This document shows, in pieces, positions 7,622 through 24,949 of a DNA stretch of 24,949 bases. Each line of letters starts with the position of its first letter. Within the stretch, counting starts at the first letter, position 1. A program made the position numbers and the translations under genes. A model generated the notes under the pieces. The model was not told the origin of the DNA. It did not search any database and saw only the letters and a program-made list of their open reading frames with translations. The stretch is from a virus, in the IMG/VR virus record IMGVR_UViG_3300020180_000117, positions 1 through 24,949 of that record; one strand, written 5' to 3'.

Positions 7622-8146
7622 CTAGCTGACGGCTGCTGGACCATAATGGCCAAGTCGGCGACCAGTGCCATAACTTTCGTCAACCAAGCCCAGCATAGTG
7701 ACTTCAAGCACACGCTGATCGTCAATCTTGAAGGGCATAGATACGCTTTCTACAGAAACAGCTTTATAGATCGTTAAATCATCTGAAAGGTCAGTAGCGA
7801 CATTTCTGAGTGGATGGAGAATAAGCTGCTTAGCTTCAGTGCGCAAACTGGCACCAGCATCAGCACCGAAATCGTTACGATCTGCAACACCAGCACCATC
7901 ATATGAGCTGGTTTCAGGGATTGCGATGTTCCACTGTGCCCATTCGGTTTGAGCCATCTTGAACTTGAGCATTAAGCGATTGCCGGTTAGGATTTTATCA
8001 ATCGGGGTGTTGCCGTATTTATCTACGACCACATCAGTAAAGTCGCGCTCTGCGGTTAACTCCGCGCCCTCAAGGGTGTGGCCTACACTGACACCATTAA
8101 AGGTGATTTGCAGTGGGCCGGCTATTTCTACTTTTGAGATGTCCAT
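7622..8146 (-). CDS. Major tail (tube) protein
   Basis: The 174-aa protein has a good Shine-Dalgarno (CAGGAG) 8 nt before its ATG at 8146. It follows the head-tail joining genes (and an HNH insertion) and precedes the chaperones, the normal place of the tube subunit. It is beta-rich with no membrane segment. The N-terminus reads MDISKVEIAGPLQITFNGVS and VGHTLEGAELTAERDFTDVV, then VDKYGNTPIDKILTG, like tube proteins of the lambda gpV/SPP1 gp17.1 fold. The C-terminal part has VESVSMPFKIDDQRVLEVTM, typical of the closing beta-strands. Hexamers of this protein should stack into the tube. No Ig-like domain is fused to it. Confidence 0.82.
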   Translation of the reverse strand: MDISKVEIAGPLQITFNGVSVGHTLEGAELTAERDFTDVVVDKYGNTPIDKILTGNRLMLKFKMAQTEWAQWNIAIPETSSYDGAGVADRNDFGADAGASLRTEAKQLILHPLRNVATDLSDDLTIYKAVSVESVSMPFKIDDQRVLEVTMLGLVDESYGTGRRLGHYGPAAVS

Positions 8147-8219: not shown

Positions 8220-8708
8220 TTATGTCCAACTCCAAGTTTTCTTAGATTTTATATAGCTGATAGTTGGTGCGCTAACACCAAATAGTCTGCCTATTTCTTT
8301 TTGCCATAAATTACCCTCCGACAAAAGCTGTCTTACTGTCAGTACATCTTGCTCAGTCAACTTTGACATACCGTGTCGCTCGCCTCTCGCAGCTTGCCTA
8401 TGCAGTGACTTGAAGCTGTGAATTATATTTTCTTTGTGGGTACACCATTCAATATTTGAAACATCGTTATTCCCCCGATTGCCGTCTATGTGATTACACT
8501 CACGTTTATTTTTGGGGTTTGGGATAAATGCCTGAGCGACTAGGCGATGGGCATAATAGCTTTTTGCAACACCGTTTTTGGATAAATTAACTTTTAAGTA
8601 TCCATTTGGCGCAGTGATGAGCTTGAGAAATAAATTATTTTTATCAGACCAGACTCTACCATCCGATGTTATTGAATATTTGCCTTCAAAGTTTACTATA
8701 TTACGCAT
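8220..8708 (-). CDS. HNH homing endonuclease with NUMOD4 motif
   Basis: The 162-aa protein starts at ATG 8708, 2 nt after the tail-terminator stop (TAATAATG). Residues 1-35 match the NUMOD4 DNA-binding motif (EGKYSITSDGRVWS). Residues 50-92 form the HNH_3 nuclease core (AHRLVAQAFIPNP, then CNHIDGNRGNND, then NIEWCTHKEN), with H54 and H73 as likely metal or catalytic histidines. Residues 120-155 look like a helix-turn-helix (WQKEIGRLFGVSAPTISYIK) for target recognition. Such free-standing nucleases cut phage DNA lacking the insertion and spread by repair. It separates two tail genes without breaking either. The 73 nt after it, before the major tail gene, hold no clear terminator. Confidence 0.9.
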   Translation of the reverse strand: MRNIVNFEGKYSITSDGRVWSDKNNLFLKLITAPNGYLKVNLSKNGVAKSYYAHRLVAQAFIPNPKNKRECNHIDGNRGNNDVSNIEWCTHKENIIHSFKSLHRQAARGERHGMSKLTEQDVLTVRQLLSEGNLWQKEIGRLFGVSAPTISYIKSKKTWSWT

Positions 8709-8710
8709 TA

Positions 8711-9142
8711 TTACGATACATTATTTAAATTCCTGCATATAAATTGGACACTAAGGCGGAAAAGTTTACCACCATCATGTCGGTCAACATCATTTATGCT
8801 TCCGAGCGCCCTGGAAAAAGAAATGTGCCAGTTGGCCGTATCGTAATGATAACGCCTATGGAAGTTATTATATACCATTTCCAGTAAAGCATGGGCGCGA
8901 TCTGTCTTGGGGCTACGCGACCAAAAGTCTATAACTGTATATTCGGTGTCAATATAATCATGTGGTGGTGGGCTAGGAGCTTCTACTAGCCAGATGGCTT
9001 CAGTCGCTAAGTCCGGTAACTCACCGACAAAGATTGTCCGATCAGCCGGTGTAGCTGTAGCGAAAGTGCCGAGCTGAAAGTTCTCGCAAAGCTGGGCAAT
9101 TTCTTTAACCAGCATTTTACTCTGCATTATATTTAGCGGCAT
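8711..9142 (-). CDS. Probable tail terminator / tail completion protein
   Basis: The 143-aa protein is the last of a four-gene joining set (connector, head closure, gp10-like, this) and precedes the tail tube gene once the HNH insertion is ignored. Tail terminators (lambda gpU type) cap the tube and bind the head. The sequence suits a small alpha/beta fold: an N-terminal helix (MLVKEIAQLCENFQLGTFA), strands with TIFVGELPD and EYTVIDFWSRS, a helix (RAHALLEMVYNNFHRRYHY) and C-terminal strands (HISFSRALGSINDVDRHDGG, LFRLSVQFICRN). The pattern of a middle helix and final strands mentioning 'D..G.....V.F....' is typical. The function is placed mainly by gene order. Confidence 0.7.
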   Translation of the reverse strand: MPLNIMQSKMLVKEIAQLCENFQLGTFATATPADRTIFVGELPDLATEAIWLVEAPSPPPHDYIDTEYTVIDFWSRSPKTDRAHALLEMVYNNFHRRYHYDTANWHISFSRALGSINDVDRHDGGKLFRLSVQFICRNLNNVS

Positions 9143-9143
9143 A

Positions 9144-9518
9144 TTATAAACCTAACGCCTTTCTAGCTTCTTGAATGTAACTGTTGCGGTTTTTTATAAC
9201 GCCGTTAATAGCGCGCTTAAACCAGCCTGAGCTAGTGCCTGGGGTAGTATATTGTCTGACGCGGTGGCTGCCATCCCGCCGCGCGCCACGTTCTTGGTAA
9301 GCTGAATATTTTTTACCAGCCTCTACTCGCCATTGATCATTAGCGGTCTTAAAATGTCGGACTTCAGACTTCATACCGCCGGTTTTAACTGGCGTACCGG
9401 CAGTGGTTTTAATTGCCCTCTCAATATCACCGGCCATGTGACCCTGAACCATGTCCTTCAAGGCGTCATTTTTGCGCATGAAGCTACCGCGATTGCTCTT
9501 GAAAATTGCTTTACTCAT
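9144..9518 (-). CDS. HK97 gp10-like head-tail joining protein
   Basis: The 124-aa basic protein overlaps the gene before it by ATGA and ends just before the tail-terminator gene. The motif set fits the HK97 gp10-like family: a long N-terminal helix (ALKDMVQGHMAGDIERAIKT), then TPVKTGGMKSEVRHF, in which the conserved 'tPv.tG.l..s' pattern is clear, then WRVEAGKKYSAYQERGARRD ('Y..y.E.G...') and GWFKRAI near the C-terminus. The family bridges connector and tail in HK97-like phages. Size is normal for the family. Confidence 0.87.
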   Translation of the reverse strand: MSKAIFKSNRGSFMRKNDALKDMVQGHMAGDIERAIKTTAGTPVKTGGMKSEVRHFKTANDQWRVEAGKKYSAYQERGARRDGSHRVRQYTTPGTSSGWFKRAINGVIKNRNSYIQEARKALGL

Positions 9519-9853
9519 GATACCTGCCTATGCCGTGCCACTTCGCACTTTATAAATTGCAAACTATTATCAGCCACTAGCCTTTTGGCTTTAGTGACCC
9601 TGATAATTTTAAGATAACCCTCGCTGGAATGGTTGTATATGTCGCCACGCACAACGCTCTCTGTGGCCTTAAACCACAAAATACCCTCAGTTACCACGCC
9701 GTCACGGTTAACGCTGTGCTGGAGGCTACTGATGTCCCTGTAGAGGCAATCGCTAGTACTGGTAGCCCCATAGTTAATATCACCAAATTCATTCTCAGTC
9801 ACTACAACTTTGGTGGCGGTTTCTACCAACTTAGCATCAATATCTATACTCAT
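9515..9853 (-). CDS. Probable head closure (stopper) protein
   Basis: The 112-aa protein starts at ATG 9853, 3 nt after the connector stop, and overlaps the gp10-like gene by four bases. Its place, second in the joining set, matches the head-closure (SPP1 gp16-like) protein. It looks like a small beta-barrel: TKVVVTENEFGDINYGA, then VVTEGILWFKAT, VVRGDIYNH and GYLKIIRVTKAKRLVADNS. The GDIY...GYLKI pattern is common in stopper proteins, where the ring plugs the connector after DNA packaging. Sequence similarity alone would not settle it; order and size are the main support. Confidence 0.68.
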   Translation of the reverse strand: MSIDIDAKLVETATKVVVTENEFGDINYGATSTSDCLYRDISSLQHSVNRDGVVTEGILWFKATESVVRGDIYNHSSEGYLKIIRVTKAKRLVADNSLQFIKCEVARHRQVS

Positions 9854-9856
9854 GGC

Positions 9857-10468
9857 CTACCCCAACAGTAAATCTCGGCGCAGATCCAAGATGCTTTTAA
9901 CATTAGGATTATTGCTGGCGATGCCGTCCAAGGCACTCGCAGAGGTGTCATAGGATATGCTGTGGCCTTCCAGGCTCTCGCTAGCGATGTTCCCACCTGA
10001 ACTAGCTATTTTGCTCTGATTAAGCACCTCAGCGGCCATAATCGTAGCTGCCGTCTGAATATCGGTAGGCACAGTACCACCATCTCCATATTCACTGAAC
10101 TTGGCCGTCACGCCTACACGCCGTAAACCGACAGGAAAAAAACCGCTGCGGCGGACGATTTCTCTCTTGACGGTATCATTAACCGGCTCGGCTACATAGT
10201 CGTCGAGGTTGGTATAAGTATCGGCCACCGTACCGTCATTATCGTAAGTTTTAACAGCCGTAATATCGGTGCAGGGATCAATGTCTGCAACTTTGCCACC
10301 ACCATCAAAATAACGGGTAGTTTCGGAGGCGCTATCAAAAGTGCTAGACAGTTTTTTATCAATCCAAACTTTTATAGCCGGTATTAAGATGGCTAAAAAG
10401 GAAGTTTCATTGGCGACAAGTGTGCGCTGAAGGTAATTTTGGACTAATGTAGTGCTAGTATAGGCCAT
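9857..10468 (-). CDS. Head-tail connector (gp6-like adaptor)
   Basis: The 203-aa protein is the first gene of the joining set. Its ATG overlaps the TAA of the 30-codon ORF before it (TAATG). It fits the gp6/gp15-like adaptor family that binds the portal: an N-terminal helical part (YTSTTLVQNYLQRTL, FLAILIPAIKVWIDKKL), a beta excursion (TTRYFDGGGK, ITAVKTYDNDG, VKREIVRRSGFFPVGLRRVG, VTAKFSEYG), then a helix with PTDIQTAATIMAAEVLNQ and a C-terminal helix NPNVKSILDLRRDLLLG. The 'v.V.a.fGy......vP..i..A....a' layout is typical. Confidence 0.85.
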   Translation of the reverse strand: MAYTSTTLVQNYLQRTLVANETSFLAILIPAIKVWIDKKLSSTFDSASETTRYFDGGGKVADIDPCTDITAVKTYDNDGTVADTYTNLDDYVAEPVNDTVKREIVRRSGFFPVGLRRVGVTAKFSEYGDGGTVPTDIQTAATIMAAEVLNQSKIASSGGNIASESLEGHSISYDTSASALDGIASNNPNVKSILDLRRDLLLG

Positions 10469-10560
10469 TATTTCTGTCCCTTCTTTTTCTTTTTCTTAGC
10501 ACGCTTGGCGAATAGAGGTCTTAGAAATGCGGCATGTCTGATGTTGTTTAGATTAAGCAT
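10468..10560 (-). CDS. Lys-rich 30-aa mini-protein
   Basis: A complete ORF of 30 codons fills the gap between the HNH gene and the connector gene. Its ATG (10560-10558) lies inside the last codons of the HNH gene (8-nt overlap), and its TAA shares a base with the connector ATG. The peptide begins MLNLNNIRHAAFLRP and ends in a very basic tail with six consecutive lysines and GQK. No Shine-Dalgarno is evident, so translation would depend on coupling. It could be a small nucleic-acid- or capsid-associated peptide. If the HNH gene is an insertion, this ORF may originally have followed the capsid gene directly. It could also be only a coupling leader. Confidence 0.5.
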   Translation of the reverse strand: MLNLNNIRHAAFLRPLFAKRAKKKKKKGQK

Positions 10561-11278
10561 GAATATATTGTAACACTATCAGAATGTGCCGTCCGGTTTC
10601 TTTATCTTGAAATACGTTTTTGTAGCCACATTTATTGCGCGGGGTTATCTTGCGCACCGGCTGTTGATTGGCTAGTCGCATACCTTTCATACGAGCTTCC
10701 GACTTGTAGACATGGCCCAGCTCGCCTGAGGTTTTCTTCTGGTGGCATGGTAGACATAGCGTCTGCCCATTGCTGACATCCCACAAGATAGAACAAGCTA
10801 AGGCGTCCTTTACGGATTTGATATTATAGTTCTCAAGGATTTTATGAAACATAACAGGTGAGTGGTCGGCGTTAAGCCTACCCCCTTGGCCACACAGAAC
10901 GCAGGTATAACCATCTCGTTCATATACGGCCTTGCGCCACTCTTTGTAATGGGATAGCCGTCTTATAGCTTCTGCAACTGGTGTTATACCACCCCTCCAA
11001 TTAGTATTGGCAGCGCCTATAATTCGTGCATCTCCCTTCTTGAAAGACGTATGACTGCCAGGCTTCCCAAGTTTATTTTTATTGTTAGTCATTTGACATT
11101 TTCTTGAGCAGAACTTAGGCATCATCTTGGGGTTTTCTAAACCTTTCTGACGGGCGTAATCGCTTCTCCAAAACTCATTACCACAGACTAGACAGTTATA
11201 GGTATGCCTAGAATGCGCCCTTTTCTCAAACGTCTTTCCTAACCAGTAGCCACCTTCGCCCTTCTTAAACTTTGGCAT
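10553..11278 (-). CDS. HNH endonuclease with N-terminal zinc finger, homing type
   Basis: The 241-aa protein lies between the capsid and connector genes, which are otherwise normal neighbours. C29, C32, C57 and C61 (CLVCGNEF and FCSRKC) form a zinc-finger-like module for DNA binding. Residues 115-180 form the HNH core: KAVYERDGYTCVLCGQGG with C126 and C129, NADHSP with D138-H139, and SNGQTLCLPCHQKK with N170, C175, C178 and H179. The C-terminus (NKCGYKNVFQDKETG) may add another DNA-contacting module. It is probably a free-standing homing endonuclease, though some HNH proteins help terminase cleave packaging ends. It has its own promoter-like sequence and hairpin, unlike the surrounding late genes. 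Confidence 0.9.
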   Translation of the reverse strand: MPKFKKGEGGYWLGKTFEKRAHSRHTYNCLVCGNEFWRSDYARQKGLENPKMMPKFCSRKCQMTNNKNKLGKPGSHTSFKKGDARIIGAANTNWRGGITPVAEAIRRLSHYKEWRKAVYERDGYTCVLCGQGGRLNADHSPVMFHKILENYNIKSVKDALACSILWDVSNGQTLCLPCHQKKTSGELGHVYKSEARMKGMRLANQQPVRKITPRNKCGYKNVFQDKETGRHILIVLQYIHA

Positions 11279-11340: not shown

Positions 11341-12753
11341 CTAACTCACGCTCCCAGTTCCGAGAACTGCGAACTTGGGCCTATTAGCCTTCGGACAGAT
11401 GTGCAACAGCCGGATCACCGCACGCATGGCCGTAGCATCCTGAGTGGCTAAGTTAAGGTCAGTACCCTCACTGTCAACCACTGTAGCTTCTGTCAGCATT
11501 TTCAAAGCCATACCACGCTTGTTGTATAGCAAAGTATTGCTTAGATCACCGTATACCGCAAAGGCATCGTTGGCAGACACAGAGTTGCTTGTTGGCAATA
11601 CTCTTGTGAATACAACAGGAGTACCCCAAGGAGTAGTTGGCTGGTTAATATTTCCAACCCAACCAGTCGCCGTATTCAAACTGCCCGATATGAAGTGGTC
11701 GTTGGTAGTACCACGCGTTTCAACCAGTCGGTACCAAGTTTCTTTTCGCAAGAACCACTTGTAGTTAGATGTATCAATGTCATCTTCCAATTTAGCTTCG
11801 GTGTCTAACAAGTCTGTCCATGTAACTGTAGTACCAGCACCAGATACGTTCTCGGTAATTACACCAGACAAGTTAGTAATACCATAAGTAGTATCGGTGA
11901 ACACTAGCTCGTCAGCTTTCTTGGCATAAGCACGAGTCAATTCGCGAGTAACCAAGTTCCAGTAGTCAACAGCAGCGTCATCGGTTAGCTCATCGGTAGC
12001 CGGTACGATAACTGCAAACTTCTGCAAGCTAACTTCATTCTTAGCAAATGCCAGCTTCGCACTGGTTTTAACACCAGCTTCAGCCGTACTATAGAAAGTC
12101 AACCCGCTATCTAATGACAGTACACGTACCGCAGTACGGTCTGTCTGTCGAACATCAGCATATTGAAATGCCACGCCGAATGAAGGTAAGTTATCAAATA
12201 CAGTAGTAACAAACTCAGCGTCAGGGATTAGAACTGCACCATCAGCGGCAGTCGTTTCGTTGGCGTAACCAGCTTTGGCTACAGCTTCTTGACCTTTGCT
12301 CTGTAGAAGCTCGTTACGAGCTTTGATTTGTGATGCTAGAGCGTAACGGTTAAGTGCCACCAGTTCCTCTCGGTTGCCAGTATCAGGGTCAAGTGCACGC
12401 GCAGCACGGTAAAAGCGCATAGCCGGTGACATATTAGAAATTTCATCAGTAAACTTACCGTCAGCAATACCCTTGGCCACAGGATCGTCAGCATCAAGAC
12501 TAGCTTGGTGTTTTTTTACAGCTTTACGCTCAATCTCTTCAACATTTTTCATGTGTTCGTCAAGAATGTCTTTAGTAGCTTCTTCTACCGCAGTCTTAAC
12601 AGCAGCTTTAACAGCCTTGTCAATATCTTCTTTGCTGGCATCGCTCATTTCGGACTTAACTTTGTCAACAATAGTTTTTACTGCTGCATCGTCTAGTTCA
12701 AAATTCTCTTCAATTATTTCATTTCCGTCCTTGTCCAGTTTGTTGTCGCTCAT
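11341..12753 (-). CDS. Major capsid protein, HK97 fold
   Basis: The 470-aa protein starts at ATG 12753, with AAGGA 8 nt upstream, inside the 3' end of the protease gene. Residues 1 to about 160 are charged, helical and Lys/Glu/Ala-rich (DAAVKTIVDKVKSEMSDASK, EIERKAVKKHQASLD), as in the scaffold-like delta domain that the protease removes. From about residue 165 the HK97-fold body begins: ADGAVLIPDAEFVTTVFDNL (N-arm region), KFAVIVPATDELTDDAAVDY, ELTRAYAKKADELVF (spine helix), WFLRKETWYRLVETRG, and PTTPWGTPVVFTRVLP to the end. Capsomers of this protein form the icosahedral head. I see no obvious partner for the HK97 Lys-Asn cross-link, which cannot be judged without alignment. Confidence 0.93.
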   Translation of the reverse strand: MSDNKLDKDGNEIIEENFELDDAAVKTIVDKVKSEMSDASKEDIDKAVKAAVKTAVEEATKDILDEHMKNVEEIERKAVKKHQASLDADDPVAKGIADGKFTDEISNMSPAMRFYRAARALDPDTGNREELVALNRYALASQIKARNELLQSKGQEAVAKAGYANETTAADGAVLIPDAEFVTTVFDNLPSFGVAFQYADVRQTDRTAVRVLSLDSGLTFYSTAEAGVKTSAKLAFAKNEVSLQKFAVIVPATDELTDDAAVDYWNLVTRELTRAYAKKADELVFTDTTYGITNLSGVITENVSGAGTTVTWTDLLDTEAKLEDDIDTSNYKWFLRKETWYRLVETRGTTNDHFISGSLNTATGWVGNINQPTTPWGTPVVFTRVLPTSNSVSANDAFAVYGDLSNTLLYNKRGMALKMLTEATVVDSEGTDLNLATQDATAMRAVIRLLHICPKANRPKFAVLGTGSVS

Positions 12754-13543
12754 TATTATTGTCCTTTATGCTTAACTTGATAGTTTTAATAACCCTTTGG
12801 GCTTGGGCCTGTACCGCTTTGGCATCTTTAAGTATAAAATGTCTAACGGTTTTTATATTAGTGGCGTCTATGAGTTTGGGGTCTTGCGACGTTTGCTCTA
12901 GACGGTCAACCACGTTCCTAAGAACTTTGATTGCATCGTTGATTTCATTCTCTGGCATATCTTTGAATTTGTCAAGCATAATCTTTTGACTAAACTCGGT
13001 AAACTCCTCGCGGATAGTTTCAACTGTCTTGCCGGTCATAGCTTCTAGGCTACGGCTGGTGATTATCGCTTGTTCGTTGGCTGGTACGGGTACAACACTA
13101 AACTCCACCATGTCCATTTCTTCAATCGTACGGTAGTCCTCGCTCCACTGGCGCACAATGCCACCGATGGAAACAGAGTTAAGGTAGCCACCTTTTATTA
13201 GGTCATAGACGGTTTTTGCAAAAGGGTATTCCTCAACAGCCAATTGGAATTGTGCTTTGATTTTGTTTTTCATCTCTACGAGTTTGAGGGTCTTGCCGAT
13301 GGGCAGACTAGAATAATCATGTCCATAAAGAACTGGCCCGCCAGTGGCCATGAAGCCATCGGTACTAATGCCAGTAGTTATAATGTTCTCCCCTGTGCGA
13401 TCTACTGTGCTTGTTGTAACAACTGCTTCAATAACGCCGTCTGCTAACGCTTTGGTGGCGTTCTTTTCTATATGCAAGAATACTTTTACTTTTTCGCCAA
13501 GTTCTCTTTTTGTGATTTCTGCATCAATAACTTTATTGCTCAT
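12719..13543 (-). CDS. Prohead maturation protease (U35 / HK97 gp4 family)
   Basis: The 274-aa protein lies immediately upstream of the capsid gene and overlaps it by 35 nt. The likely catalytic triad can be read in order: H75 in VLYGHDYSSLPIG, S125 in LNSVSIGG and E147 in MVEFSVVPVPAN. These match the H...S...E pattern of herpes-assemblin-like phage proteases. The N-terminal core spans about residues 20-165. The C-terminal 110 residues are helical and charged (ETIREEFTEFSQKIML, AIKVLRNVVDRLEQ) and probably targets or self-cleaves during assembly. A ribosome-binding AAGGA precedes the ATG at 13543. It trims the capsid delta domain within the prohead. Confidence 0.92.
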   Translation of the reverse strand: MSNKVIDAEITKRELGEKVKVFLHIEKNATKALADGVIEAVVTTSTVDRTGENIITTGISTDGFMATGGPVLYGHDYSSLPIGKTLKLVEMKNKIKAQFQLAVEEYPFAKTVYDLIKGGYLNSVSIGGIVRQWSEDYRTIEEMDMVEFSVVPVPANEQAIITSRSLEAMTGKTVETIREEFTEFSQKIMLDKFKDMPENEINDAIKVLRNVVDRLEQTSQDPKLIDATNIKTVRHFILKDAKAVQAQAQRVIKTIKLSIKDNNNERQQTGQGRK

Positions 13544-13926: not shown

Positions 13927-16110
13927 TTAGGCAAGTTGTTCCAGTGACGCTGAAATAAATGATGCTGTTGTTCCTGCTGCGGTCATCGTAAGGGTTATAG
14001 CCGCCGCGGCAGTATTGATACTAAAATACATAACTGAGGAGAAACTCAATGACGCTCCTGTAGTGGTAGTACGCAGTGTAGCGCTTCCCGTTTGGATAAA
14101 ATTAGGCGCAAAGGTTGTAGCTACGCCTGCGGCACTTGTGAAGGTTACCGAAGGGGTAAATGACCCTGTGTTAGTACCAGAGGTGGTTGAAACAGTTATA
14201 CTAAGTCTGTATCTACCTGCCGTAGCTGGAGGGGTGTAGTTTATAAGATTTGTCTGGGTTACGGCTACCGAGCCCGTAGCGGCAGTTGCAACGATAGACG
14301 GTACACCATTCGCTACCGTAACTATGTCATTGTATCTTGTAACAAGCCCCGAACTTGTGACAAGAGCTTTCCCTGCTATGTCAAGGAGTGCGGTAGGTGC
14401 AGTGTTATCACCTAACCGAAGATTACCAAGGATAGAACTATCTGCCGTTCCTGAATGATACAAAAACCATTTATTTGTTCCTGAAGTAATGACAGAAGCA
14501 ACGCCAAAATTATTAGTACCAGAAGTTAAATCATCACAATACAAGCCATATTGATTTGTAAGAGTATTTGTACCTGCTCCACTTTTGACTAAGTTTTCAA
14601 CCCAAACACCTTTGGAATTTGTAACAGTAGTAACTGATGGAGTGCCACCAGCTGTATCCGAACCCATCCGAGGACTGGCTCTAAGCCCAACAAAATCAGT
14701 TACTGTATTAGCCGAAGATGCACCAACACTGCTTGCCATTGCGCCCCACCAATGCGAAACAAAGGATGGAGTTGTTCCCGCCGCTATAGTAGAGGCTGTA
14801 GTCAATGACATTTGGTCAAATAAAGCATTGAGATTAGCAGCTCTAACGCCCGTTGCATCCAGTGACACTATCGGCTGAGCAACGAATAAGTAGAAACTAT
14901 TACCAAATAAGGGGTTAGCGAGAAACTTATAAGTCCCAGCTCCTTTAATAGCCTGGAAAGAAAACGCAGTGCCACTTGTTGATGTTATCGTTGGGGTGAT
15001 ATTAACAATGTTTAATACTGTGTTATTAGAATTGAATGTTGGGGTAAAGTTAAGAACATTTGCATTTGTATCCGCAGGAATTGATGGCCATAAAAAAACT
15101 CTATCATCTAAAAATAAATCACCTTTCGTAGCGTGTGAAGTTGATTGGAGAGTTACGTCATCACCTGAAGCTGTACCGCCTATTATTAGCGGAGTAGTGA
15201 TGCTGGTTGTAAAAGTTGGAGTAGTCCCAAAAACGGCTGCACCTGTGCCTGTTTCATCAGATAAAACACCTGCTAGTTGAGCTGATGTAGTTGCTGCGAA
15301 TTGAGATATAGGGTTAGCTACTAAAGCGTCACCGCCACCACCTGCTGCTGTTTGCCAAGTAACGACACCTGCACCATTAGTCTGTAGAACTTGGCTTGCT
15401 GAACCGTCTGTTATTGGTAGCGTGAATGTGTTAGCGATAGTGACTGCGCCAGTGTTTGATACTCTAAATCTTGTTGTTCCACCCACTTGAGCATCTATGA
15501 GGTTCTTAACACCTGAACCTGTAGTGGTTTCAGTTGGGTTGATGAGTAGTGCGGTGTAGCCAGCGGTTGAGGATTGGTTGATTGTGGGTCTGATTTCCTG
15601 TGATATTTGAGTACCAGTGGATTGCGTTTGAGCACCATTTACAGAGAAAATACGAACGTTGGCTGTACTGGTGTCTAATAATGCTTGAACTATGCCGTTA
15701 CTAGTAAAGCTGGTTCTAAGCCATAAACCGTTGGTACTTACGTCATAAGCAGCGAGTTGTAAATCACGCCACACGCCAGTTCCACCAGCTCTTGTTGTTA
15801 TCCTGAAAACATTGCCAGTCCAATACTGCATTAACCTCTCAAAGTTAGTAACTTGGTCTGCGGTATTGTAGAGAGCTATACCTGTAGCTGTAGAGTTTAG
15901 GGTGAGGGAGTGGGTTGGGGCGATTGTTCCTAATCCTAACCTAGAACTGTCATCAACTGTCACCCCACTATTTTGCACTAACTTACCTGTAGCACCGTCA
16001 TATCTTACTATAGCGTTATCTGTAGCACTTGCTGGACCTACTACATCACCAGAGCCATCAGCGTCACTTTCTCTGTAATCGCCAAGAATAGCATCGAATT
16101 TATTGCTCAT
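13927..16110 (-). CDS. Fibre-like virion protein (727 aa), possible head or neck fibre
   Basis: The ATG at 16110 overlaps the stop of the gene before it (ATGA). After a short leader (MSNKFDAILGDYRES), residues about 20-60 hold VVGPASATDNAIVRYDGATG and KLVQNSGVTVDDSSRLGLGT, a motif frequent near the start of phage fibre proteins. The long middle is Thr/Gly/Ser/Ala-rich beta sequence. It has TNQYGLYCDDLTSGTNNFGV and LRLGDNTAPTALLDIAGK, patterns of trimeric beta-helical fibres. The last 110 residues look like a compact beta-sandwich tip. There is no S74 peptidase or other chaperone at the end. It lies between portal and protease genes, not with the tail-tip genes, so it may decorate the head or neck. 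Receptor binding is possible but not shown. Confidence 0.8.
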   Translation of the reverse strand: MSNKFDAILGDYRESDADGSGDVVGPASATDNAIVRYDGATGKLVQNSGVTVDDSSRLGLGTIAPTHSLTLNSTATGIALYNTADQVTNFERLMQYWTGNVFRITTRAGGTGVWRDLQLAAYDVSTNGLWLRTSFTSNGIVQALLDTSTANVRIFSVNGAQTQSTGTQISQEIRPTINQSSTAGYTALLINPTETTTGSGVKNLIDAQVGGTTRFRVSNTGAVTIANTFTLPITDGSASQVLQTNGAGVVTWQTAAGGGGDALVANPISQFAATTSAQLAGVLSDETGTGAAVFGTTPTFTTSITTPLIIGGTASGDDVTLQSTSHATKGDLFLDDRVFLWPSIPADTNANVLNFTPTFNSNNTVLNIVNITPTITSTSGTAFSFQAIKGAGTYKFLANPLFGNSFYLFVAQPIVSLDATGVRAANLNALFDQMSLTTASTIAAGTTPSFVSHWWGAMASSVGASSANTVTDFVGLRASPRMGSDTAGGTPSVTTVTNSKGVWVENLVKSGAGTNTLTNQYGLYCDDLTSGTNNFGVASVITSGTNKWFLYHSGTADSSILGNLRLGDNTAPTALLDIAGKALVTSSGLVTRYNDIVTVANGVPSIVATAATGSVAVTQTNLINYTPPATAGRYRLSITVSTTSGTNTGSFTPSVTFTSAAGVATTFAPNFIQTGSATLRTTTTGASLSFSSVMYFSINTAAAAITLTMTAAGTTASFISASLEQLA

Positions 16111-19221: not shown

Positions 19222-20742
19222 TCAGTCAACGTATATGTCGTCCTCATCCACGATCCCCGAAACATCCACAAATGTTAAAACAAAGGCATCAGCAGTGTCA
19301 GGGCTTTCGGCTTTAATGCCTTCTTGGGCTGACCTTTTAATCATTTCTTCCTTCGGTTCAATTTGCGTTCGTAGACTACTGTTTTGTCTATAATTAAGCA
19401 GTTTAAGCTCAAGAAAACCATTATCACGATATAGCTTGCCTTGTTCTTTACGCAACCATGTGCGTGCTTCCCAATACATCCAGGCTCGGATATTCAAAAA
19501 GCTCTTAGGCACTTTGAAATTACCTGACTCTTTTTCACCAAATAGAACGGGCTTAACAAGATAACCTCTAGCTTTTAGGATCGCCGGTAAACCATGACCC
19601 ACACCACCAGCATCAATTACAGTCCGGTAGTCCTGTATGTTCCACTCGCGGATCAATGACTCAGCTATATCGGCTATTTCGTCAAGGTCATCGCTATTGC
19701 TAGTTTTAGCAACCATAGCAAAATCGTGTTTTGGAAAACGCAACACGAACTTACACTTGTTTTTACCCGTGCCGGCAACGTCAATACCTAGTAACGGTTG
19801 ATCGTCAATAATATTATGATCCCATTTGTTCTGTAAGATTTCGCCACTCTCGCCCTTTTTGTAAGTCCACTGTGGCATAGAGTCCACCAGCGCGTCCTCT
19901 ACCACCATATCGCTTACTAAGCGTCGATAGCCGCCAGCCAGCATATCCTCAGCGTCAGGGAATACGCACTGGTACATCCATTCATAACCAGCCTCGTCTT
20001 TCATTTCGTTCAGAAAATCTACCGTATAACGACCTTCAGCTAAAGCCATTTCATCATTGACATATATTTTCTTATAACGCTCGCCAAACCAAGTACGGTG
20101 AAAGTGATTACGGTAAACTGGGTTGCCAATTTCCAGCAAGAAGTTGTCTTTAGTACCGCCTAACATACGCTTGACCGTACCGTAAAGTTCATCGCTTAAT
20201 TGTCCGGCTTCATCCAGCACCACATTGGCTGCACCAAAACCCATCAAGGCGCTTTTGACAGCCCTGGTATTGGAAGCGTTACCAGAATAAACACGTACTT
20301 CGCCACCCTCACGGAAAGTTATGCGAGTTTTGCTACGCTCTTGTTTTAACTTTTCTCTTGTACCGTTGTATTGTAATTGCTCATAAAAAAGCGAGTCATC
20401 GTAAATACGATCAATAATGTAGTCCATAATAATACGCCCCTTTTCCTCGCTGGGGGCTACAATAGCCCAGTCCTCACGATGTGAAATAATGCGCATTAAG
20501 ACACCATCGGCCACGCTCATTGATTTTCCGTATTGGGTAGGTAGGATTAGCTGGGTACGCGGATACCGTCTCTTAGCGATAATATCCACAACTTGTACTT
20601 GAGTAGCAGTGAAGATGTCGCCATGCGTATCGCCGGCTTCGTTATGGAATATCTGTAGGAGCGCTCGCCATTTCGCCTCCGCCTTCGCTGGCATCGGCGG
20701 TAGTAGGTTCGCTACTTGCGTCATCGTAGTCGCTTTTGTCAT
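19222..20742 (-). CDS. terL: Terminase large subunit
   Basis: The 506-aa packaging motor starts at ATG 20742, chosen because AAGGA lies 8 nt upstream, although this makes a 101-nt overlap with the small subunit. ATPase domain: a Walker A-like LPTQYGKS at 67-74, AIVAPSEEKG as a probable adenine/Q-region helix at 93-102, and a Walker B VVLDEA with D177 and E178. Nuclease domain: D321 in LLGIDVAGTGKNK, D377 in YRTVIDAGG and D485 in PDTADAF are the likely RNase-H-type metal-binding acids. It pumps DNA through the portal (next gene) and cuts the concatemer. Length is normal. The packaging strategy (cos or headful) cannot be read from the protein alone. Confidence 0.95.
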   Translation of the reverse strand: MTKATTMTQVANLLPPMPAKAEAKWRALLQIFHNEAGDTHGDIFTATQVQVVDIIAKRRYPRTQLILPTQYGKSMSVADGVLMRIISHREDWAIVAPSEEKGRIIMDYIIDRIYDDSLFYEQLQYNGTREKLKQERSKTRITFREGGEVRVYSGNASNTRAVKSALMGFGAANVVLDEAGQLSDELYGTVKRMLGGTKDNFLLEIGNPVYRNHFHRTWFGERYKKIYVNDEMALAEGRYTVDFLNEMKDEAGYEWMYQCVFPDAEDMLAGGYRRLVSDMVVEDALVDSMPQWTYKKGESGEILQNKWDHNIIDDQPLLGIDVAGTGKNKCKFVLRFPKHDFAMVAKTSNSDDLDEIADIAESLIREWNIQDYRTVIDAGGVGHGLPAILKARGYLVKPVLFGEKESGNFKVPKSFLNIRAWMYWEARTWLRKEQGKLYRDNGFLELKLLNYRQNSSLRTQIEPKEEMIKRSAQEGIKAESPDTADAFVLTFVDVSGIVDEDDIYVD

Positions 20743-21172
20743 CTAAGAAGTCCTTTATTTTTTCTCTGGTATCTATTGATCCCACACTGATCTTATATTC
20801 AGTTCGGTCACGCCAGCCAAAATTATTTAGAAGGTTAAACTTAGCTCCAGCATGGTTTTTTTCCATTAAACGGTTCTCAACATCTTCATGCACTTTTTCT
20901 CTAGCTTCACATATAGTGTCACCAAATAGCTCAAGCTTTTTGTATTCTGACAATGCTTGGCGACTCAACCCCAAGCGCCTAGCTAAACCACTCATGGTAT
21001 AAGGTGCAGGGTTAAATATTTCAATTACGCCATCTGCTTTGGCACTATAAATCTTCTCTATCCGATTATCACAGAAATCAAAATACTCATCTATAGCTAC
21101 TTGCATAGCTTCTGTGGTTTGGTATTTCATTGGGGGGCCAGTATCGTGACTCGGGTTTATTGGTGCTGCCAT
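20642..21172 (-). CDS. terS: Terminase small subunit
   Basis: The 176-aa protein starts at ATG 21172 with AAGGA upstream, 2 nt after the stop of the small gene before it. It resembles small terminases of the gp3/Terminase_2 kind: MKYQTTEAMQVAIDEYFDFC (helix), PYTMSGLARRLGLSRQALSE (helix-turn-helix, about residues 57-76), then a helical multimerisation region with TICEAREKVHEDVENRLMEK and GAKFNLLNNFGWRDRTEY. The acidic C-terminal tail (DDKSDYDDASSEP) is probably the large-subunit contact. It recognises the packaging site and loads TerL, whose gene overlaps it by 101 nt. Confidence 0.92.
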   Translation of the reverse strand: MAAPINPSHDTGPPMKYQTTEAMQVAIDEYFDFCDNRIEKIYSAKADGVIEIFNPAPYTMSGLARRLGLSRQALSEYKKLELFGDTICEAREKVHEDVENRLMEKNHAGAKFNLLNNFGWRDRTEYKISVGSIDTREKIKDFLDDKSDYDDASSEPTTADASEGGGEMASAPTDIP

Positions 21173-21174
21173 AA

Positions 21175-21588
21175 TTATCCTTTTTTCCTTACCATTGTAG
21201 CCCCATTACTAAATTCATGGGTAATTTTCTTTTTATCAGTAAATGTTTGACGGGCAACACCAATATCTTTGGCATATTCCAATAACATCAGGTCTTTGTT
21301 GCGCGTTTTATTCCACGACTTCAAATTGTCGGGAAGCATAAGTATCAATTCATACTGATTGTCCTTAGCATACTGGACTGCTGATTGGTCAGATATGAGC
21401 ATAACGTATTGCAAATCCATAAATTCGTCATAATTCAAATGTTCAATTATAGCCTGGTATTCTGATAGCTTTGTTTCATCAGGTATAAAAACACGTATGT
21501 CAAAGCCAGCGCGCGGTGCCCATCTAAGCGTATTTTTAGCTAAGGTCTTTGGTTTGTTGTCGTTAGTGATTGCTATTAGTATCTTCAC
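21175..21588 (-). CDS. Small unknown protein upstream of terminase (137 aa)
   Basis: I prefer a GTG start at 21588, because AAGGGG lies 9 nt upstream and the protein then begins (M)KILIAITNDNKPKTLAKNT. An ATG at 21615 would add nine poorly fitting residues. The N-terminal beta strand and helix, and RAGFDIRVFIPDETK, FMDLQYVMLISDQ and YELILMLPDNLKSWNK, suggest a Rossmann- or GT-A-like alpha/beta fold without a visible DXD. The neighbours upstream are glycosyltransferases, so it may be a reduced relative of those. It may equally be an unrelated packaging-region protein. Function not recognised. Confidence 0.75.
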   Translation of the reverse strand: MKILIAITNDNKPKTLAKNTLRWAPRAGFDIRVFIPDETKLSEYQAIIEHLNYDEFMDLQYVMLISDQSAVQYAKDNQYELILMLPDNLKSWNKTRNKDLMLLEYAKDIGVARQTFTDKKKITHEFSNGATMVRKKG

Positions 21589-21784
21589 GTTTATAGACCC
21601 CTTGCTGAAACCCATGTGTATCCCTTGTAAAAATAACTACCCCTGTTAAACTCCCTTGTTTTTTTTCTATCGGGGCAGGGAAGGGGTTATATAGCGTACT
21701 CGCCTGTTTTATGTTCCTATATATAGCGTCCCCTGCTACTCCCCTGCTGGGTATAATTCTTGAATTAATATCTGTCTTGTTCAT
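21563..21784 (-). CDS. Doubtful 73-codon ORF over a motif-rich region
   Basis: The ATG at 21784 lies inside the end of the glycosyltransferase gene (20-nt overlap) and the stop lies 26 nt inside the next gene. The product (MNKTDINSRIIPSRGVAGDA..., 73 aa) has no recognisable fold. The DNA beneath is dominated by repeated CARGGGR motifs, so the frame may be open only because the DNA is unusual. No Shine-Dalgarno is clear. Translational coupling from the preceding gene would be the only support. Confidence 0.3.
   Translation of the reverse strand: MNKTDINSRIIPSRGVAGDAIYRNIKQASTLYNPFPAPIEKKQGSLTGVVIFTRDTHGFQQGVYKREDTNSNH
21598..21746 (-). repeat. Cluster of CARGGGR motifs, candidate packaging or protein-binding site
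   Basis: Reading the minus strand, CARGGG(R)-type motifs lie at about 21746-21740, 21735-21729, 21706-21700 (variant CAGGCGA), 21658-21652, 21645-21640, 21627-21621 and 21604-21598. An inverted copy lies at 21676-21682. ACGCTATATA also occurs twice (near 21728 and 21699). The stretch lies about 430 nt upstream of terS. Closely spaced degenerate repeats near terS resemble small-terminase binding sites, but the last ones double as ribosome-binding sequences. The function is inference. Confidence 0.4.
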
Positions 21785-22571
21785 AGTCGTCCCTGTTCCA
21801 TTTACCGTTAATAATACTCTTAGTATATACCACTTGGGTCAATCTTATGTTGGGGTCGTCGTGATACAACACTTTGTTGTAATCATTATGTCCAAAAACA
21901 GTGTCCCAGTCGACTAGGCACTTAAAGCCTTTTTGCCGAATCCATAGGCCAAACACAACATCAGGCCCGTATGGATGCGCCGATGAGCTGTGGTAGTCGT
22001 GGTTTAGGTATAGATCACGGCGAGTAGCGTAGCCGTAAAAGCCGCCGGCTGATATGTCTTGATAACCGGTTGCTGGCAATAACGTCTTAATCATTGTTGG
22101 CTCAAAAGGATTGTTGGCTTCCCACGCCCCAATCATGCTAGCGCCCCAGCGCCCCATCTGCACGCCTTCTACAAAGCCAATAGTCGGATCGTCAATCAAT
22201 GGCTTGAGCAACGGGTCAAAGCTTTTAAGCCTGTCAAAAACGGTATCATCCTCCAGCCCAATAATGTATTCGCCATCGGTTAGGTTAATAAGGTCTTTGC
22301 TCTGGTTGTGAACTTCTGCCACGCGCATACGCCGTATAGCCAAGCGTACTTCGTTAGGGTGCCAGTCCTCGTTTATTTTCACGTGAAAACTACGGTAGGC
22401 GTGCTTCTCGGCAAACTTCTTTATGGTGTTGGCAATTAGATGTTGGTCGCCGTCTACGATTATACACAGATTAGTTAGTGCCGGATCATGCTCTACAGCT
22501 TCAAGATTAGCCAGCCAACCGTCAACGGCCCAGGGACGAGTCCAGGGACAAAAGATTGTGATTATCGGCAT
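21765..22571 (-). CDS. Glycosyltransferase, GT-A fold (family 2-like)
   Basis: I take ATG 22571 as start (268 aa), since GGAGG lies just upstream; an upstream in-frame start would overlap the preceding gene by 55 nt. The protein begins MPIITIFCPWTRPW, a first beta strand typical of GT-A enzymes, followed by LCIIVDGDQH. The metal-binding DXD-type motif is EDD at 107-109 in YIIGLEDDTVFDRL. The middle contains DISAGGFYGYATRRDLYL, a probable acceptor-side region, and PYGPDVVFGLWIRQKG. No membrane segment is present. It probably transfers a sugar from a nucleotide-sugar to an unknown acceptor. It overlaps the previous GT gene by 10 nt. Confidence 0.82.
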   Translation of the reverse strand: MPIITIFCPWTRPWAVDGWLANLEAVEHDPALTNLCIIVDGDQHLIANTIKKFAEKHAYRSFHVKINEDWHPNEVRLAIRRMRVAEVHNQSKDLINLTDGEYIIGLEDDTVFDRLKSFDPLLKPLIDDPTIGFVEGVQMGRWGASMIGAWEANNPFEPTMIKTLLPATGYQDISAGGFYGYATRRDLYLNHDYHSSSAHPYGPDVVFGLWIRQKGFKCLVDWDTVFGHNDYNKVLYHDDPNIRLTQVVYTKSIINGKWNRDDYEQDRY

Positions 22572-23641
22572 AAGCCCTCCAGTGCTGTAATGTACTGGGG
22601 TTTCATACTCTGCCAACTAATTGAGTTTGCTAGTTTGCCAGCCTGGATATTCTCAAACCACATCTGACTTTCATTCATGTTATAAAACTCATCTATCTTA
22701 TTTGCTATGACTTCAGGGTCTGAGCCATAAATATCTATAACAGTACGTGGTGTAAACTCGGAGATTTTAGTGGCAGGCACAAGCCAGTTGCGTGGTAGGA
22801 ATTGATTATTTGGGCTTATGTCGGTCATTATCACCGGCATTCCCACGCTCAGGGCTTCATTCATTGGCAGACAATTGCCGCCATAACGGCGCGGCATCAG
22901 TAGCACATCGCCATCGGTATAAACATCCCAGTAATTATCAAACTCATTTTGCTGGATAGTAATATTCGTGACACCGGTGTTAGCCAGTAATGCTACATAA
23001 TCGGCGTATGAATTAGTGGCTTGGTGCGATAACCCCTGCTCACCTTGGAAATGGATTAGTATTTTGGCATCTGTTTTAAGATATTTGCTGGCTTGTATAA
23101 CTGTTTCCGTGCCGTTGCGGTCATGGGCTGCTGACTTACCGACAACATGTAGGAAGGTTCTGGCTTGTTTAATAACTCGTTGTGGCAACTTCTGACGATC
23201 TACCGGATGGTGCAGATAAATACATTTAATATTGTTTGCCTGTGAGAAAGTCTGCAACTCATCAAAGTGCCATTTACTCGGTGAGATAATCATATCAGGC
23301 TTTGGAAATTGCGGGTAAGCAAAGTAATCTAAAAACTCCCAGTTAGGTATTTGTGCGGTTTTGATTCCTAATTCTCTGGCTCTGGCAAAAAGATAATAAC
23401 TTAGTGGTGTCTCGGCAACCAAAACACAATCCAGCCCTTTCAAAAATATCTTTATATCTTCACCCCTAGGATAGCCTTTGACTATTTGGCTGTTGGGTAA
23501 TCGTTCAGGATATTGCTTTGACCCGTTAAGTCCCGACAAGTCCACTTGCATAACCTTGGCTGGTTTCAAATGTTCTACTAGGGCTTGCGACTGTATGCCA
23601 AGCCCATTGTTTGACGAATATGCCAAGCAACCCAATTTCAT
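22562..23641 (-). CDS. Glycosyltransferase, GT-B fold (GT4-like)
   Basis: The 359-aa protein starts at ATG 23641. The N-domain begins MKLGCLAYSSNNGLGIQSQA, a GT4-like Gly-rich loop. KPDMIISPSKWHFDEL is the classic inter-domain region where GT4 enzymes read 'vi..S....'. FLHVVGKSAAHDRNGTETVI starts the C-domain, which binds the nucleotide-sugar. MPRRYGGNCLPMNEALSVGM (249-268) followed by PVIMTD corresponds to the 'EGFGLP..EAma.G.PVi.t' donor-binding motif, with N/E variation (E262 kept). It is soluble. The acceptor cannot be inferred. Confidence 0.88.
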   Translation of the reverse strand: MKLGCLAYSSNNGLGIQSQALVEHLKPAKVMQVDLSGLNGSKQYPERLPNSQIVKGYPRGEDIKIFLKGLDCVLVAETPLSYYLFARARELGIKTAQIPNWEFLDYFAYPQFPKPDMIISPSKWHFDELQTFSQANNIKCIYLHHPVDRQKLPQRVIKQARTFLHVVGKSAAHDRNGTETVIQASKYLKTDAKILIHFQGEQGLSHQATNSYADYVALLANTGVTNITIQQNEFDNYWDVYTDGDVLLMPRRYGGNCLPMNEALSVGMPVIMTDISPNNQFLPRNWLVPATKISEFTPRTVIDIYGSDPEVIANKIDEFYNMNESQMWFENIQAGKLANSISWQSMKPQYITALEGLCR

Positions 23642-23650
23642 AATTTGCTC

Positions 23651-24385
23651 TCAGCTTGCTGTGGGGTCATAGGTGTCTGCTCCGTATCTGCGCCCGTCGA
23701 GGTGCTTACTTCTTACCAATGTGCCTTCGGGTGCGTAAATATGCAACCGGTGTTCATCGTAGTTATCGCCACCCTCTGCAATCATACCGTACATTATATG
23801 CTCAATAAAGCGCGGCTGGTCATCGAAGTATTTGCTGGCTATGTCTCTATAATACTGCGTGCTGGCTAAGTGCGGACGGCCTGACCATTGGCGCGTGCGC
23901 AAGAATGGTTGCCCTAATATGGTGATCGGTGAGTGGTCGAGCATCAGATGTTCATGCTCAGGGTGTATTTGAGCCTCGAAGTGGAAGCGGATTACATTGG
24001 CGTAGCCGGTCTTAACTACCTCTGATAGTTCGGCAAAGGGTATGTCGTTATGCAGTGGCGTGTCCTGTTCACTCCATAAAATTAGTGGTGTTCTGACTAG
24101 ATCTAAGGCTTTTTTAGTCATCAGCGATTGATGGCTGTGGTGGTCAAAGACAATTGGCGTGGCATTGCCTAGCTCATTATTTATTTTCCAAAGCATTGTT
24201 TGCTTAAATTGCTCATAGGCTGTTTTATGTTCCGCGAACCATGCCGGCAAGCCATCGAACATAAATATAATTTCGCTATCAGGTAGGCGCTCGCGAATAC
24301 TGGCTATAGTCTGGTCTAGCACCTCTGTAGAAGGATGGCTAGGCATTGAACTTACTGGCACCAAGCAAGTTATATCGTCATTCAT
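23651..24385 (-). CDS. Glycosyltransferase-like, GT-A type
   Basis: The 244-aa protein's ATG (24385) overlaps the upstream gene's TGA by ATGA. N-terminal CLVPVSSMPSHPSTEVLDQT and IRERLPDSEIIFMFDGLPAW suit a GT2-like fold. An acidic EQD at 106-108 within LILWSEQDTPL stands where the DXD metal site belongs. IRFHFEAQIHPEHEHLMLD and DQPRFIEHIMYGMIAEGG follow. The family assignment is by pattern only, and the DXD-like site departs from the usual form. It is 9 nt from the GT4 gene and clearly part of the same operon. Confidence 0.72.
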   Translation of the reverse strand: MNDDITCLVPVSSMPSHPSTEVLDQTIASIRERLPDSEIIFMFDGLPAWFAEHKTAYEQFKQTMLWKINNELGNATPIVFDHHSHQSLMTKKALDLVRTPLILWSEQDTPLHNDIPFAELSEVVKTGYANVIRFHFEAQIHPEHEHLMLDHSPITILGQPFLRTRQWSGRPHLASTQYYRDIASKYFDDQPRFIEHIMYGMIAEGGDNYDEHRLHIYAPEGTLVRSKHLDGRRYGADTYDPTAS

Positions 24386-24949
24386 TTTGATAATTCTCCA
24401 ATATCATCTAACATCTTATATTTTATGCTTCTTTTTCTTGTTTGCCACCACGCAAAACATTTATTGGCGTTGGCTGGATAGTCGCGCAACAGTTCTGGCA
24501 GCAGCTTTGGGAACGCATCCCAGTAATCAATGATTGGAAAAGGCACATCGCCATCAAACAGGTATTTCCAAAAGCCAGGGCTTTTATGCTTCGTAGAAAA
24601 GGCATCTACCACCGGCACACAGCCAGCTTCTAGCGCTTCATACAGCCGGAAGTTATCAGGGCTTTCGATACCGCTAGGACAAGGTACGATCTTAGTTTGC
24701 GCCATAGCTGTTAGGTATTCTTTATAAGGCACAACCTCTTTACCGAAGCCATCAGTCTCGACAATTTTATTGTAAGGATATTCCGGCTCTAAGCGGCGCA
24801 GTTCCTCTAAGCACTGTTCGCGGCGTTCATGATTAACCTGTCCGGCAAAGAAAAAATTAAGCTGGCGCTCTTGTTGACCAATCTCTTTTAACAACTTACG
24901 GGTATCTGGCCGGTAGCCATTAGGCAGGTGAAATGCTACATCATCATGC
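24382..24949 (-). CDS. Exostosin/GT47-like glycosyltransferase, 5' end beyond the window
   Basis: The frame is open to the right edge, so the N-terminus is missing. Within the window it reads HDDVAFHLPNGYRPDTRKLL, then LNFFFAGQVNHERREQCLEE and a C-terminal domain with VPCPSGIESPDNFRLYEALE, AGCVPVVDAF and DVPFPIIDYWDAF. The 'FFaG....R......L' and 'cP.G...d..R.yEAle.GciPVv' patterns fit the exostosin (GT47) donor-binding domain. A TTG at 24894 would be a poor internal start. About 188 residues are visible. It is the first of four consecutive sugar-transfer genes. Confidence 0.8.
   Translation of the reverse strand, partial: HDDVAFHLPNGYRPDTRKLLKEIGQQERQLNFFFAGQVNHERREQCLEELRRLEPEYPYNKIVETDGFGKEVVPYKEYLTAMAQTKIVPCPSGIESPDNFRLYEALEAGCVPVVDAFSTKHKSPGFWKYLFDGDVPFPIIDYWDAFPKLLPELLRDYPANANKCFAWWQTRKRSIKYKMLDDIGELSK

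Follow-up and report, generated by a model that had tools for sequence, protein, structure and literature searches.

The window analysed here is the whole of the virus record IMGVR_UViG_3300020180_000117 (24,949 bases), and it carries four glycosyltransferase genes that lead a minus-strand run of virion genes, upstream of the terminase and in the same direction. They form the 3' portion of a longer glycan-assembly cassette that is cut by the contig end. The cassette probably builds a glycan on virion proteins, the most likely acceptor being the serine with which the capsid protein and the tail protein each end. The virion is favoured as the target because the cassette lies within or beside the head genes in several phages, the window enzymes have no hydrophobic segment, no hydroxymethylase was found, and the capsid and tail proteins both end in serine. 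Below, other IMG/VR loci are cited by L-number and protein families by C-number.

The C-terminal serine of capsid and tail proteins

Serine is the last residue of the major capsid protein of the window, of the major tail protein and of two connector-type proteins (Table 1); two neighbouring connector proteins are without the shared ending. Among the relatives that make up the window's family, GxGxVS ends 17 of 17 complete capsid proteins, which are not independent, several of the phages being closely related, and whose identity to the window's protein drops to 31%. The complete tail proteins end in [VI]S in 10 of 10 cases, the relatives of the head-closure-like protein in [VIL]S in 10 of 10, and those of the tail-terminator-like protein in [VIL]S in 9 of 10, L021's record having alanine. 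As a baseline, 65 of 658 complete open reading frames (ORFs) of at least 90 amino acids in the tabulated cassette loci end in serine. The codons of the C-terminal motif vary among relatives, which argues that the constraint acts at the protein level.

The cassette genes and the capsid end are both visible in seven records (the window, L008, L009, L012, L014, L019 and L021), the remaining capsid records being fragments from which only the capsid can be read, with C7 in addition in L003. Sequences open at a contig end were excluded from the C-terminus counts (capsid ORF of L097; tail ORFs of L060 and L098), and repeat-record capsid and tail entries were counted once (L057, L061, L076, L095, L102, L104, L105). 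In L098 the capsid gene (8929-10194) is split between two ORFs, the last of which was used for the count. Two distant capsid relatives with 24% identity, L106 and L107, end in TGSASGS and TGSGTGS and stand outside the 17, as does the L023 capsid.

A terminal serine on both proteins is found in other lineages with glycosyltransferases too. Capsid and tail proteins end in TPASS and VVVAS in L023, in KATS and VSGS in the L034 record (the tail protein there being identified through PHROG 2175, with a weak major-tail match besides), in SALS and TAGS in Streptomyces phage Dryad, in KTGS and SDGS in mycobacteriophage Che8, and in LVGS and KGDS in Firecracker, a member of Corndog's genus. Serine terminates both proteins in six of seven glycosyltransferase-bearing lineages versus 1 of 14 controls (Fisher p=0.0009), the glycosyltransferase content of the controls being mostly unchecked and several tail proteins being assigned by position. 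If Myrna, which is reported to be glycosylated, is counted as a miss, the figure becomes six of eight (p=0.0023); if the window family, which suggested the idea, is dropped as well, p is 0.0055. The controls were phages Oceanotoga, Syntrophomonadaceae, SfV, Javan255, A118, VaK, Morganella, Lachnospiraceae, Bbif-1 and BgVeeders33, together with D29, TM4, Giles and Bxb1; the Syntrophomonadaceae phage has serine on the tail protein only.

The shared serine on capsid and tail proteins, as a candidate acceptor motif, appears to be new here. A literature search over titles and the first parts of abstracts returned nothing on this cassette or on a C-terminal serine rule; Freeman et al. 2023, which reportedly describes glycosylated virions in the mycobacteriophages Che8 and Corndog, may already name serine.

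Table 1. Features of the window, in the order in which the minus strand is read
Feature	Position	Strand	Evidence
GT47-like glycosyltransferase, 5' end cut by window end	24382..24948	-	Pfam Exostosin_GT47 and RXYLT1_C above cut-off
GT-A1 glycosyltransferase	23651..24385	-	AlphaFold2 model, matched to GT-A enzymes by Foldseek and VIA
GT-B glycosyltransferase (GT4-like; C3)	22562..23641	-	Pfam Glycos_transf_1; PHROG 2170
GT-A2 glycosyltransferase	21765..22571 (ATG 22571; TTG start at 22616 possible, also open)	-	AlphaFold2 model matches GT-A enzymes
73-amino-acid ORF between GT-A2 and C7	21563..21784	-	ORF call; no relative in clustered loci
Small conserved protein C7, before the terminase small subunit	21175..21615	-	Relatives in L007, L003, L009, L010, L011; no Pfam match
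Terminase small subunit	20642..21172	-	Pfam GP3_package; PHROG 606
Terminase large subunit	19222..20742	-	PHROG 2, E 5e-23
Major capsid protein; C-terminal LGTGSVS as candidate glycan acceptor	11341..12753	-	PHROG 10 major head protein, E 3.2e-34
Head-closure-like protein (position only), C-terminus RQVS	9515..9853	-	No PHROG match
Tail-terminator-like connector (by position), C-terminus NNVS	8711..9142	-	PHROG 2595 head-tail connector, E 0.0014
Major tail protein, assigned by position; C-terminal YGPAAVS as candidate glycan acceptor	7622..8146	-	PHROG 2175 'protein with Ig domain', E 5.5e-27

The glycosyltransferase genes and the larger cassette

An earlier note, made from the sequence of this window alone, had described four consecutive glycosyltransferase-like genes just ahead of the terminase. 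All four ORFs are present on the minus strand in the terminase direction and as closely packed as it had described: the GT47-like and GT-A1 genes overlap by 4 nucleotides, GT-A1 and GT-B are 9 nucleotides apart, and GT-B and GT-A2 overlap by 10. The position needs a small correction, for the 73-amino-acid ORF and C7 intervene before the small terminase subunit, and the count of four is a minimum imposed by where the contig stops.

Two of the genes are recognized as glycosyltransferases by Pfam and two by a predicted GT-A fold. The GT47-like ORF has 188 codons (relatives in L007, L013 and L014 have 300-314 amino acids), shows 63% identity to the L002/L007 protein, and scores 33.9 bits with GT47 (cut-off 33.4) and 37.3 with RXYLT1_C (cut-off 27). 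GT-B scores 29.6 bits with Glycos_transf_1 (cut-off 26.4) and matches the glycosyltransferases of PHROG 2170 (E 7.8e-20). GT-A1 and GT-A2 have no Pfam match. Their AlphaFold2 models (predicted local distance difference test scores of 86.7 and 83.5, respectively) place both in the GT-A fold; a prediction of folds other than glycosyltransferase ones is what the earlier note would have taken as a refutation. Among the matches listed for GT-A1 are SpsA, polypeptide GalNAc-transferases and, as the best, B4GALNT1 (Z 16.7; root-mean-square deviation 3.4 over 194 residues), as well as some nucleotidyltransferases with the same Rossmann-like fold. Those listed for GT-A2 include SpsA, the collagen-modifying LH3/COLGALT1 and PcManGT, the last at the top of a second listing (Z 18.4; deviation 2.5 over 177 residues). 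No exostosin stands among the matches listed for the two structures, which excludes nothing. The acidic metal-site motif is invariant, ExD in 36 of 36 GT-A1 proteins and EDD in 12 of 12 GT-A2 proteins. The fold assignment reveals neither donor nor acceptor. The GT-A and C7 profiles found no convincing match among PDB sequences, and a kinship of GT-A2 to C7, GT-A1 or C12 was unsupported by profile comparison.

Querying IMG/VR with the terminase, GT-A2, GT-A1 and C12 yielded 36 further records with cassette genes (37 with the window), many of them carrying additional glycosyltransferases, methyltransferases and a sugar-nucleotide epimerase. Repeat records (L001, L002, L015-L018, L026, L028-L030, L032, L033, L054) were left out of the cassette table, and so was L008, which is a separate record but represents almost the same phage as L009. 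The fullest order, in L009 and L011, is GT-B (C8), methyltransferase, GT-A (C12), FkbM methyltransferase, MT24 methyltransferase, NAD epimerase/dehydratase, GT47-GT-A1 fusion, GT-B (C3), GT-A2, C7 and terminase. GT47 and GT-A1 co-occur in 36 records, adjacent or, in 12 of them, as one fused protein. GT-A1 was itself the query that found 14 of the records, so a cleaner figure comes from C12: GT47, GT-A1 and C3 are present in 24 of the 25 loci found through it, and the 25th, L031, ends at a contig edge, the other end of the same record (L014) holding all three. GT-A2 is less constant (4 of 25 C12 loci, 9 of 14 GT-A1 loci). Extra members are a PIG-L deacetylase in L044 and L023, and a dTDP-sugar isomerase with RmlD-like and epimerase proteins in L025.

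Cassette methyltransferases occur in L007, L009 and L012 and are lacking in the window, whose cassette is cut. The earlier note had suggested looking for sugar-nucleotide genes beyond the window, and there the relatives do add methyltransferases and sugar-nucleotide enzymes, which strengthens its proposal that genes next to those for packaging encode a sugar structure made in several steps. Its suggestion that this happens late in infection may hold too, judging by the direction and position of the genes.

Several features of these loci may be recorded. L019 has an S-adenosylmethionine synthetase gene inside the cassette (12050-13051), which perhaps feeds the methyltransferases. L031 and L014, the two ends of the 36.2-kb contig 3300031251_000068, continue one cassette, as a permuted or circular genome would. 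Genes for ParB-like proteins or DNA methyltransferases lie between the cassette or contig start and the terminase in L007 (8886-10407 region; a C5 methyltransferase), L005 (1627-2931; a fusion of a ParB-like protein with an apparent methyltransferase) and L006 (1-570). C7 sits between the cassette and the small terminase subunit with either terminase type. L024 looks frameshift-rich, and in the window two HNH endonuclease genes of different families are inserted in the virion gene run (8220-8708 and 10553-11278).

The large terminase beside GT-A2 is of type C4 in five and C14 in three of eight non-redundant records. The L023 cassette comes immediately after the major head protein, with small genes lacking a named PHROG just past it and the major tail protein further on; in L025 it adjoins connector genes on the other strand. 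L034 encodes WhiB, which suggests a host among the actinobacteria. No relative of GT-A2 came up when bacterial and archaeal genomes were scanned, and tblastn against cultured phages gave no match to GT-A1, GT-A2, GT-B, the L002 GT47 or the L009 C12; of the cassette proteins tried, C8 alone had matches, which lay in nine Streptomyces phages and in a record that is unannotated.

The target of the glycan

The earlier note had left the target open among the virion, the host surface and DNA; the virion is now favoured, and the other two are weakly disfavoured. Under the favoured reading soluble enzymes, presumably expressed and active in infected cells, would use nucleotide sugars to assemble, in the cytoplasm, a methylated oligosaccharide straight onto newly synthesized virion proteins. 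One glycosyltransferase would put the first sugar on the C-terminal serine of the capsid (GTGSVS-COOH) and tail protein (GPAAVS-COOH), and perhaps on the two connector proteins with the same ending; the others would extend it, and methyltransferases and an epimerase encoded past the window end would complete the glycan, whose benefit could be, for example, shielding of the particle. From the conserved endings we infer that the serine is an O-glycan acceptor. It is a more tentative proposal, to which we give somewhat less than an even chance, that a single phage-encoded cytoplasmic O-glycan is directed to all four kinds of protein (capsid, tail tube, head closure and tail terminator) by the free C-terminal serine that they share.

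Several observations weigh against glycosylation at these serines. The terminase subunits lie downstream of the cassette in the window and a head protein is its neighbour in L023, but the cassettes of L034-L053 were, where looked at, not beside head genes. L025 carries the cassette, yet its capsid protein ends in TAVTV (its likely tail protein ends in PAS), and among the sheath, tube and other candidates examined in Myrna, the capsid gene of which is unannotated, only gp115 ends in serine. The control Oceanotoga phage has serine at both ends, with no cassette homologue in bases 1-43969 and no glycosyltransferase by Pfam among eight proteins. The cassette hidden Markov models (HMMs) found no match at E 0.01 in Firecracker 15000-45000 or Che8 1-25000, a stretch outside which Che8 gp110 lies. 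The serine idea, moreover, arose from the same data, and the 14 controls were hand-picked.

The glycan might be destined for other acceptors in the virion, namely serine/threonine-rich fibre-like proteins, the C-terminal serine being a structural trait of the capsid and tail families. Suitable proteins exist: one of 727 amino acids in the head gene run (13927-16110) is 26% serine plus threonine, and one of 695 in L009 (17504-19588), made of many TILGxARIT-like repeats, is 28%; homologous capsid proteins may also conserve their C-terminus for assembly. We regard this as unlikely, given that the serine ending is common to capsid and tail proteins of different families and recurs in unrelated glycosyltransferase-bearing phages. 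Alteration of the host surface, excluding other phages, would suit a multi-sugar product, and phage glycosyltransferases play such a role in lysogens according to an excerpt of PMC12619734. It is nevertheless improbable here, for the window's five cassette proteins have no hydrophobic segment (top 19-residue hydropathy mean 1.13) and so do not resemble, by hydropathy, membrane-bound glycosyltransferases of the serotype-converting gtr type; a mean of 1.6 is reached by 2 of 197 cassette proteins. Bac_transf was matched in 0 of the 37 records (control, 9 of 14), GtrA and flippases not having been searched by profile.

Glycosylation of modified bases in the phage DNA has in its favour the C5-cytosine DNA methyltransferase gene inside the L007 cassette, and phages that make glycosylated cytosine from 5-methylcytosine exist. 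Such a gene was seen in the cassette of L007 only, no profile search having been made over the full records, and a thymidylate-synthase-type hydroxymethylase (PF00303) was matched in 0 of the 37 records (control, 9 of 14); Tet_JBP (PF12851) likewise gave 0 of 37, which says little as its control was also unmatched. We consider a DNA target very improbable. The absences that count against the DNA and surface targets are weak, the records being fragments.

Comparison with known systems

Exostosins combine GT47 and GT64 in one chain. The fused cassette proteins are like them in having a GT47-like and then a GT-A domain in a single chain, and differ in that the GT-A half has no Pfam match, hence none to GT64, and in that nothing points to polymer synthesis. 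Dryad encodes, in genes 34-36, a homologue of the GT-B C8 (E 2.8e-44) with an FkbM methyltransferase two genes on, and shares the serine ending of capsid and tail; unlike in the cassette, only C8 of the cassette HMMs matches, and the genes sit past the lysis genes rather than at the terminase.

The closest parallel in function is the Che8/Corndog type. Excerpts of two papers report capsid and tail-tube glycosylation in these phages (PMC12363180; PMC11600133), and a third puts the glycans at the C-terminal ends of the capsid and tail-tube proteins (PMC12619734); PMC8402811 concerns host glycans instead. The reports cover Che8 and Corndog, Firecracker being counted by genus. Between its portal and protease genes, Firecracker encodes an O-methyltransferase and glycosyltransferases (gp33-36). 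Phage glycosyltransferases within or beside the head gene run, and capsid and tail proteins ending in serine, are common to both systems; an accompanying methyltransferase is seen on the cassette side in relatives of the window. If 'C-terminal glycans' are taken, in our own reading, to require a hydroxyl residue at the capsid and tail C-termini, the window has one in each. The cassette differs in having more enzymes, in its GT47 with a GT-A partner, and in belonging to uncultured phages of mostly unknown host.

Virion glycosylation by phage enzymes has so far been reported for a few mycobacteriophages. If the favoured reading is right, a conserved cassette in 37 uncultivated records and several terminase contexts would suggest a common phage trait, and the acceptor motif would offer a sequence signature by which to spot it. 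By analogy, the likeliest view is that the cassette works like the mycobacteriophage system, a likeness of function, with no homology of the enzymes detected in the stretches compared.

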